From Dillenia suffruticosa (taxonomy: Eukaryota; Streptophyta; Magnoliopsida; Dilleniales; Dilleniaceae): a DNA stretch of 64,000 nucleotides. Positions 43,705 through 46,700 of this stretch are shown here, piece after piece. The stretch covers positions 8,582,001-8,646,000 of the forward strand of contig JAVTVX010000035.1 of NCBI GenBank assembly GCA_033439265.1, read 5' to 3'. A model generated the notes under the pieces. It made no database searches, was not told the DNA's origin, and saw nothing but the letters and a program-made list of their open reading frames with translations. Each line of letters opens with the position of its first letter. Position 1 is the stretch's first letter. The position numbers and the translations under genes were made by a program.

Positions 43705-46700
43705 ATGGCTTCGTTGAAAAAGCTTTTTCCTCCTCCTCGCTCCTTCTTCCATGTACCTCTTTCTCTTTCTCGTTCTCTCATGTTTGTTGTAATAGGTGCT
43801 TGGTATATATCGTATTAATGATTTTTGATTCTTTGTAGTCGCAGAATAAAAGCTTTTCTCTCATTGGAGTTCCTCAAGGTCTCTCTCGTTCTCTCTCTCT
43901 CTCTATCTCTAATTTTTGATTCTTTGTTGTCGCAGAATAAAAGCTTTTCTCTCATTGGAGTTCCTCAAGGTCTCTCTCTCTCCCCCCTCTCTCTATCTCT
44001 AATTTTATTTTTCTTATGTTTCAATTTAATGTTTTTGGAAAAGCTGAGATAGTTGTCGAAAACCAGAATTTAGAGAATACAATGCGGGCGCATCATCGTT
44101 GGAACAAACAACACTCAAATTCGAAGACGAAGACAGAAAACTTGACACCAATAGCTTTACTCTTGGCCATGAAATCTCCAAAATTCGACAAGATTTTGAT
44201 CATGCTAAGAGGAGTTTTCTTAAAATTCCCAAAGCTCTCAAAGGAATGCCCAAAACGAACCCTGAAGGTTTCCTATCATTTATTTCATATATTATTGTAT
44301 AAAAGATATATCGACCAAATCCTACGTGGCACCATTTATTGGTGCCGTAAAATACGGTCATTGATCTTTTTGGGTTCTCATAACATTACTTTTATGGATT
44401 ATTTTTTTGGGGTTGGATATGATTTGATTTTGATTATGGAAAATATGGGAAAATTTGTAGGTATTTATGTGAATAAAAATCTGAGATTGGATAGCATACA
44501 AGTATATGGGTTCGATTACGACTACACCTTGGCACATTACACTGCTAATGTGCAGAGTTTGATATATAATCTTGCAAAGGAACATATGGTTAATGAGGTT
44601 TGTTTTGTTCTGATGATATACTTTAATGTTGGTTTATGGGGATTCAGTTCAAAGTTGGGTTGATTTAGTGTGTTCTATGTTTGTTTTGTTGTGGTTCTTT
44701 CTTTCAGTTAAGGTATCCTGAGAGTTTGTCACAATTTGAATATGATCACACATTTCCCATTAGAGGTCTATATTATGACAAGCAAAAAGGGTGTCTTTTA
44801 AAGTTGGACTTTTTCGGATCGATTGAGCCTGATGGATGCTACTTTGGTCGTCGCAAGGTACAATGCTTGCAACTTTTTTCTCGTTGATGTTTCATATGTT
44901 GGATCTCTCTTTGACCCTCTTGTGTAATTTATAGAATTTGGAACTTGGCGATGCTGTTGTAGGAAGTTTAGGCTAGACCAATGAAATTGAAATGTGTCTG
45001 ACTTTTGATTGTCCTGATATTCACAAACATGTGAAAAAGCATAAGTCTAAGTGCGTCTAACAAACTTAGGAAGGAATAATTTCATGGGCATGATGTCGAG
45101 ATGTTGCAAGGATTCAATTTCTCCAATATTTCGGGACCAATGGATTAGGTTGGTTTCAGTATGAATTATCAACAACTGAGAATTGATAAAAAGGAGCAAT
45201 GGAAGTTGGCTTAGATGAAGAGGGAGTTTATCCTCTCATTGAGGTTTTGTGTTCTCTATCGAGAGGCAGTGAGAAGAAATTCTCATGAATTTGCTAGGTT
45301 TGGTGTAATATGCTTTGCTTGGGTCAACTTGACAAGGGAACAAATGAGGCAAGGCCTACAAACCCTTCTACACATGACAAAAAGAAAAAATTTACTACAA
45401 GGTGAGAACATTAAGTTGTAGACACATAACAAATCTCACCTTCCTAAGTTGGGGACTTCCAGGAGATGGTGGGCAGATGGAAAGATTTTACAAACTTCGT
45501 GAAGAATTCTGTAGACACTTTATCAGTGCCAATTAATGGAGTAGAATGGAGTACCAGAATTGGACTGCACAACCTTTATTCCAATCCTGCAAGAGCTTTG
45601 TTACCAATAGAGCTCTTTATTTTGTTGGGACTAAGTTGCTGTCACTGTATATGAATGTGGATCCTTATATGCGCAAGTGTCCAAAAGCTTAAAATGTCAT
45701 GATGAAAGGGAGGCAGAACATGGTGGTAGTCGGAGCCTAGTTAGATCATGCTTCATGGAGAGTGAAGAAATGGGTTGATAAGAGGTGGGGAATGTTGGAG
45801 TTCAAAGCGTGAGATACCTTTGCAGGTTAAGCTACCTTTGAAGCAACTGGAGTCTTTGGAGGCAGAGAGAGAAAGTTGATTTGGAGTTGCAAGGGTCCAT
45901 TTATAGTTATTTAGAAGATGGAAAGGCATTATGCATGTTGGAGCTCCATGCTTAAGTGAAGGCATATCCGGTGTTCCATGGGCAAGACAGGCCATTTTGC
46001 TTTGGTCTGGAAGCAACCAACGAGAGGTGGTAGTAGCTTTAAGAAGTAAATGCTTTAGTGAACCAATCAAAGCTTTAGACCCTGACATGTTTGAGGACGT
46101 ACCATCAAGATTTATTATATCCAGCTTGTTATTTGTCACCTAGGTATGAAGATAATGTGGAGATAGCCTTCAAATGAGAAATTAATGTTACAACCTTTTC
46201 AAGAAAGCTTCAATGTCAATACTTTGGAGAAATCGAAGAATGTTGGAGTAAGGAATCTAATTGCAAGAATGCTGATGATGTACTCGAGTATCTAGAGAAG
46301 ATGAAAAAGTTAGTAGCATCTCTGTCTCTATGGCATTGGCCCATCAGGTAGGGAAGGATGTGACAATTTCAACCTCCCTGATCAACATGTGCTTTCTACC
46401 ACTGAATTTCCAAGCACAAGCTACAGTTAGGGGCATTTGATGTAATATTCTAGACTTAGGCTGAGTAGACTTGGGTCTTTTTAATGGTAGGCTTACATTG
46501 TATGAAGGTGGCTTGGGTGAAGGATCCATGCTGATTGTCATTGTATTTTTCAACGATTTTGAAAATTAGCTTATTCTTTGTTTGTCTTTGATGTCTTATT
46601 TAATTACTTTTAAGGGGCAAGTATGATTAGAGGAACTATTGTACTTGTTCTCCTGCCAGGTCTCAAATGGCTTATAGAGCTCCTTTACGAGCCAAGAACA

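Follow-up and report, generated by a model that had tools for sequence, protein, structure and literature searches.

A probable young tandem duplication of a putative 34-nt exon in a 5'-nucleotidase-family gene of Dillenia suffruticosa

Introduction

Tandem duplication of an exon can give rise to neighbouring exons that are used one at a time, as described in the relevant passages of PMC5224494 for exons Ab and 3 of U2AF1 in vertebrates. According to the same passages, U2AF1 transcripts that contain both exons or neither of them include stop codons, and decay reduces their levels; steric interference is listed among the mechanisms that act on duplicated exons. Here, we describe a plant locus of related design in a stretch of 64,000 nucleotides (nt) from Dillenia suffruticosa (assembly GCA_033439265.1, contig JAVTVX010000035.1, positions 8,582,001 to 8,646,000), which is called the window below and whose first letter is position 1. 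In this window a 34-nt sequence, the putative exon 2 of a gene of the 5'-nucleotidase family, is present twice in succession together with its acceptor and donor. The reading we favour, which holds about half of our confidence, is that of a young and near-neutral tandem exon duplication, the copies of which would by default be spliced one at a time.

Results

The 34-nt sequence was found at two sites in the window, both with 0 mismatches in a search that allowed up to three, whilst the maximum count in 100 shuffles was 0. The two copies are identical at 34/34 positions and each retains its AG and GT, as the original prediction, made from the letters of the DNA, had reported. Repeat detection returned a 67-nt pair with 99% identity at a spacing of 91 nt, and Tandem Repeats Finder (TRF) gave a period of 91, 2.1 copies, 93% matches and a score of 330. 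The exact 91-bp period that had been claimed describes the exon together with its splice sites, but not the unit as a whole: the alignment places a copy of 91 nt head to tail with a copy of 90 nt, and the two differ by indels and substitutions, amounting to several bases, within a CT tract. Across unit positions 1–58 (24 nt before the exon and the exon itself) 57 positions agree, the sole difference being an A at 43837 in place of the T at 43928. This single difference in 58 outside the CT tract agrees with the near identity from which the original prediction suggested a recent duplication; the age that it yields, about 0.03–23 million years over two assumed rates, is too loose for use. Provided that exon 2 is an exon, adjacent homologous copies with their splice sites make this locus a tandem exon duplication.

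Because of the A at 43837, copy 1 also has an additional possible acceptor, a TAG ending at 43838, 6 nt upstream of the CAG and absent in copy 2, the use of which would insert two in-frame codons (Ser-Gln, by reading).

The 5-mer ATTTT opens copy 1, opens copy 2 and recurs right after copy 2. A short edge sequence shared in this manner is commonly seen where a small tandem duplication arises via microhomology or slippage. CT-rich edges had been proposed as the cause, but the CT tract is internal to the unit and does not lie at the edges of the duplication. We rejected recombination between CT tracts as the origin of the repeat, as the sequences TATTAATG before copy 1 and CTATCTCTA before copy 2 differ and ATTTT is what the edges have in common. 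The coordinates of the unit and of the surrounding gene features are collected in Table 1.

Table 1. Features of the duplicated unit and its host gene (positions in the window)
Feature	Position	Strand	Basis or remark
Unit copy 1, 91 nt	43821..43911	+	Repeat detection, TRF, alignment
Unit copy 2, 90 nt	43912..44001	+	Alignment
ATTTT at unit edges	43821-43825, 43912-43916, 44002-44006	+	Alignment
Putative exon 2 copy a, 34 nt	43845..43878	+	Acceptor region GTAGTCGCAG; extra in-frame TAG ending 43838
Putative exon 2 copy b, 34 nt, identical	43936..43969	+	
Would-be intron separating the copies, 57 nt	43879..43935	+	
A (vs T at matching 43928), single difference before the CT tract	43837	+	Makes TAG in copy 1
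Exon 1, ATG start, 48 nt, phase 0	43705..43752	+	Inferred from sequence; weak donor CAT/GTACCT
Alternative long exon 1, in frame to exon 3 without exon 2	43705..43795	+	Donor TAG/GTGCTT
Exon 3, phase 1 acceptor	44067..44267	+	
Exons 4-14 of the 5'-nucleotidase-family gene	44461..54692	+	
5' leader segment, complementary 12/13 to copy-1 acceptor 43832-43844	43619..43631	+	Weak lead

The consequences of the duplication for the reading frame follow from splice sites that are present in the sequence, namely the donor at 43752/43753 and the exon 3 acceptor at 44066/44067, with phases 0, 1 and 1. When exon 1 ends at 43752, inclusion of either copy encodes the same residues, the segment NKSFSLIGVPQ, in the same phases and gives the same mature mRNA and the same open protein, with introns of 92 and 188 nt for copy a and of 183 and 97 nt for copy b. 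Inclusion of both copies creates CAA-GAA-TAA, with a stop at codon 29, and omission of both from donor 43752 shifts the frame to a stop at codon 87; on the identical coding content and on the effects of double inclusion and double skipping on the frame the original prediction was correct. Retention of the 57 nt between the copies leads to an early stop too. Mutually exclusive exons would call for a broken frame after both joint inclusion and joint skipping; this is seen with the donor at 43752, whereas skipping from a second donor at 43795 stays in frame. Because most exon junctions lie >50 nt past the stop (11/14 after double inclusion and 10/12 after double skipping), both products would be expected to decay under the general rule.

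An intron between the two copies would measure 57 nt. The deletion mutants of Goodall and Filipowicz, as reported in the passages of PMC1626468 on intron length, place the plant minimum at 70–73 nt, and the same passages give a cut-off of 73 nt derived from plant introns in GenBank. Judged by its length, the spacer is below the minimum for a functional intron (57 vs 70–73 nt), which is the configuration that steric hindrance would call for. The A residues of the spacer that look best as branch sites (in CTAAT and TTGAT, picked by eye) come just 34 and 41 nt after its 5' end, and the shortest intron within the Pfam-matched part of the gene (introns 4–12) is 110 nt. As the spacer appears too short for a plant intron, we infer that copy a is not spliced to copy b. 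Spacing, then, probably prevents double inclusion, which is unlikely to serve as a switch, and it is the simplest mechanism of exclusion, requiring no regulator.

The sequence supports the identification of the host as a gene of the 5'-nucleotidase family. Fourteen exons, from 43705 to 54692, join without an internal stop; their ends were chosen by eye and then joined by script, except that the scripted last exon was 4 nt short and its end at 54692 was read by eye. The product of 551 amino acids matches PF05761 (5'-nucleotidase family) at residues 96–541 over profile positions 1–459 of 460, scoring 497.9 bits where the cut-off is 28.5, and by this full-length profile match it is a member of the family. 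Its relatives in the PDB bear the names cytosolic purine 5'-nucleotidase (best E 5.4e-47) and IMP-GMP specific 5'-nucleotidase. The product contains FDYDYT, a catalytic stretch of the DxDxT type, and At2g23890 is a putative homologue in Arabidopsis. The first 95 residues, which lie outside the Pfam match and into which the putative exon 2 falls, look like an organelle presequence. A pseudogene is not favoured, as exons 1–14 joined are open and the Pfam match is near-complete. Searches for homologues of the 551-residue protein produced 43 pattern stretches in viral contigs and 34 in prokaryote genome contigs, with 0 confirmed in each, and since neither collection is of plants, these results are uninformative on plants. 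Intron 6 of the gene contains a long CT array at 47661–47810 (CT over 118 bp, 98% match, 47686–47803).

Several other features were observed in the window, in which an Rfam scan found no family at gathering score. An ATC trinucleotide array at 14212–14710 is long and pure (499 bp, ~166 units, 99% match), and nearby open reading frames (ORFs) at 12754–13308 and 17227–17778 encode short proteins of Gly/Ser/Ala repeats with N termini that appear signal-like by eye and no Pfam match at E 0.001. On the minus strand, an uninterrupted ORF of 432 amino acids at 25202–26500 belongs to the NAD-dependent epimerase family (PF01370), and presumably resembles the plant UDP-glucuronate 4-epimerases. Downstream of the 5'-nucleotidase-family gene, at 56891–58809, are two ORF pieces, the second with PPR repeats (PF13041) and the first with no Pfam match at E 0.001. 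The PPR repeats and the epimerase, together with the style of the introns, point to a flowering plant as the host.

Discussion

Our findings are consistent with a model where a recent head-to-tail duplication of ~91 bp, with its edges in a 5-nt ATTTT microhomology, would have doubled an entire exon of 34 nt, acceptor and donor included, in the presequence-like N-terminal part of a nuclear PF05761 gene. Each mRNA would then include one copy or the other and encode an identical protein, whilst the 57-nt stretch would be too short to serve as a plant intron and would keep the copies from being joined. Products that leak through with both copies, with neither, or with the 57 nt retained would meet early stops and presumably decay. 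The duplication would be close to neutral, because the single-copy transcripts give an identical protein and the leak products are expected to decay.

Several points weigh against this model, in which exon 2 is a putative exon. The original prediction held that splicing must choose exactly one copy, a claim that depends on exon 1 ending at 43752. When the start and the acceptor of exon 3 were fixed, with no more than a single middle exon allowed and no intron shorter than 60 nt, we enumerated 30 in-frame combinations, and two of these (donors 43771 and 43795) omit exon 2. Among the 22 GTs scored in 43705–44066, the donor at 43795 has the strongest predicted pairing with U1 (-5.2 kcal/mol), the donor at 43752 pairs poorly (-0.7 kcal/mol), and the two exon 2 donors, AAG/GTCTCT, are modest (-4.1 kcal/mol each). 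An exon 1 that runs to 43795 would splice in frame to exon 3, making exon 2 dispensable and leaving the whole unit inside an intron of 271 nt, with no coding consequence. Nor does homology call for exon 2, as the Pfam match does not extend into the N-terminal segment. We nevertheless regard this alternative as unlikely, though it deserves to be taken seriously. It would make a coincidence of the U-rich CAG acceptor, the 34 nt open in phase and the AAG/GT; by our estimate, an in-phase open stretch of this kind would be found in roughly one case in five. It also leans on U1 pairing, a crude predictor of donors when taken alone: among introns 4–12 the values range from +0.5 kcal/mol (AAT/GTCCGT at 48618, a donor supported by the protein) to -9.1 kcal/mol (52563). 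The copies could instead be two slightly different alleles wrongly placed in tandem by the assembly, with a single exon 2 in the real gene, an explanation that we hold to be a little less likely again. One substitution and a CT tract of different composition are differences such as alleles show, and simple CT tracts are prone to error in assembly; the junction, however, is clean, with the 5-nt ATTTT microhomology of ordinary tandem duplications, which is weak evidence. As for the spacer, the passages of PMC1626468 acknowledge that introns below the minimum do occur in GenBank, the shortest of which they call probable annotation errors.

Two further explanations both appear improbable. A regulated off switch, in which controlled double inclusion would lead to nonsense-mediated decay, was raised by the original prediction and fits the stop at codon 29 with most junctions >50 nt downstream. 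It would require excision of a 57-nt intron, under the plant minimum; neither a regulatory element nor conservation was found in its support, and such a stop can arise whenever an exon with a length not divisible by 3 is duplicated. Of all the explanations considered, we believe this one the least. A choice biased by RNA structure, which we would not expect to be correct but rate slightly above the switch, proposes that, owing to the A at 43837, the 5' leader segment at 43619–43631 pairs with a single acceptor, that of copy 1, hiding that copy and making copy 2 the working exon. The predicted duplex is -15.0 kcal/mol with copy 1 vs -10.4 kcal/mol with copy 2, where the one differing base makes the pairing weaker, and when the letters of the surrounding sequence were shuffled 2000 times, this acceptor never reached the 12 matches out of 13 (best 11, in 11/2000). 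In 12/12 folded transcripts (starts 43540–43610, ends 43969–44270), the paired fraction of the acceptor was 0.81–0.89 for copy 1 and 0.48–0.60 for copy 2. With 43837 changed in silico to the copy-2 letter, the pairing of copy 1 was 0.49 instead of 0.85; in transcripts whose start lay downstream of the leader arm it was 0.51 (3/3), and shuffles of the leader and exon 1 reached the native copy-1 value in 2/200 and the native difference in 1/200. However, the arm was spotted before testing, and in 53/1000 dinucleotide shuffles of the region one or more of six splice sites had an arm that matched as well. A docking site for selector RNA would pair in turn with each copy and show covariation, whereas this arm pairs with copy 1 and, in the same folds, hardly with copy 2. 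In the reciprocal change, with the copy-1 letter placed in copy 2, the pairing of copy 2 rose to no more than 0.59 whilst copy 1 remained at 0.78, and when five transcripts were shortened at their ends, the pairing persisted in four (0.88) but dropped to 0.51 in the one ending at 43936. The pairing would close a loop of ~200 nt, which is poorly predicted, and the transcription start is an assumed one. A scan of the leader for bacterial promoters says nothing about a plant gene. An extension of this idea, a newborn mutually exclusive pair before divergence in which one base (43837 A/43928 T) would set the usable copy via leader pairing, copy 2 would carry the gene and the spacer would forbid joining, is a scenario in which we place very little belief, between the leader pairing and the switch.

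If the copies are real and used, the young duplication that we favour would be a natural snapshot of the first step toward mutually exclusive exons, in which identical copies break the frame when together and a spacer would enforce exclusion by its size without a regulator. It would also offer a simple test, in the plant, of the rule of minimum intron length. Otherwise, this is an ordinary small duplication with no effect on the protein expected.

The locus resembles U2AF1 in having neighbouring duplicated exons of which one would be used at a time. In the account of PMC5224494 cited above, however, the U2AF1 copies have diverged (seven amino acid variants) and have been maintained throughout vertebrate evolution, whereas the copies here are identical and apparently young, and it is the short spacer that is the likely block. 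Exons 2 and 3 of FLM/MAF1 in Arabidopsis are likewise a short, neighbouring and mutually exclusive pair in a plant gene, but they encode different segments and are used in response to temperature, whilst the present copies encode the same residues. A tandem duplication in potato, described in a section of PMC4974935, is similar in being recent, in affecting a plant gene and in copying intron and exon signals; that event created an intron, whereas the one described here copied a putative exon in full and left a spacer that probably has too few nucleotides for an intron. We judge that, to a kind of arrangement that is itself known, this locus adds a very young pair, as yet without divergence, of a putative 34-nt exon that breaks the frame, separated by a spacer below the intron minimum.
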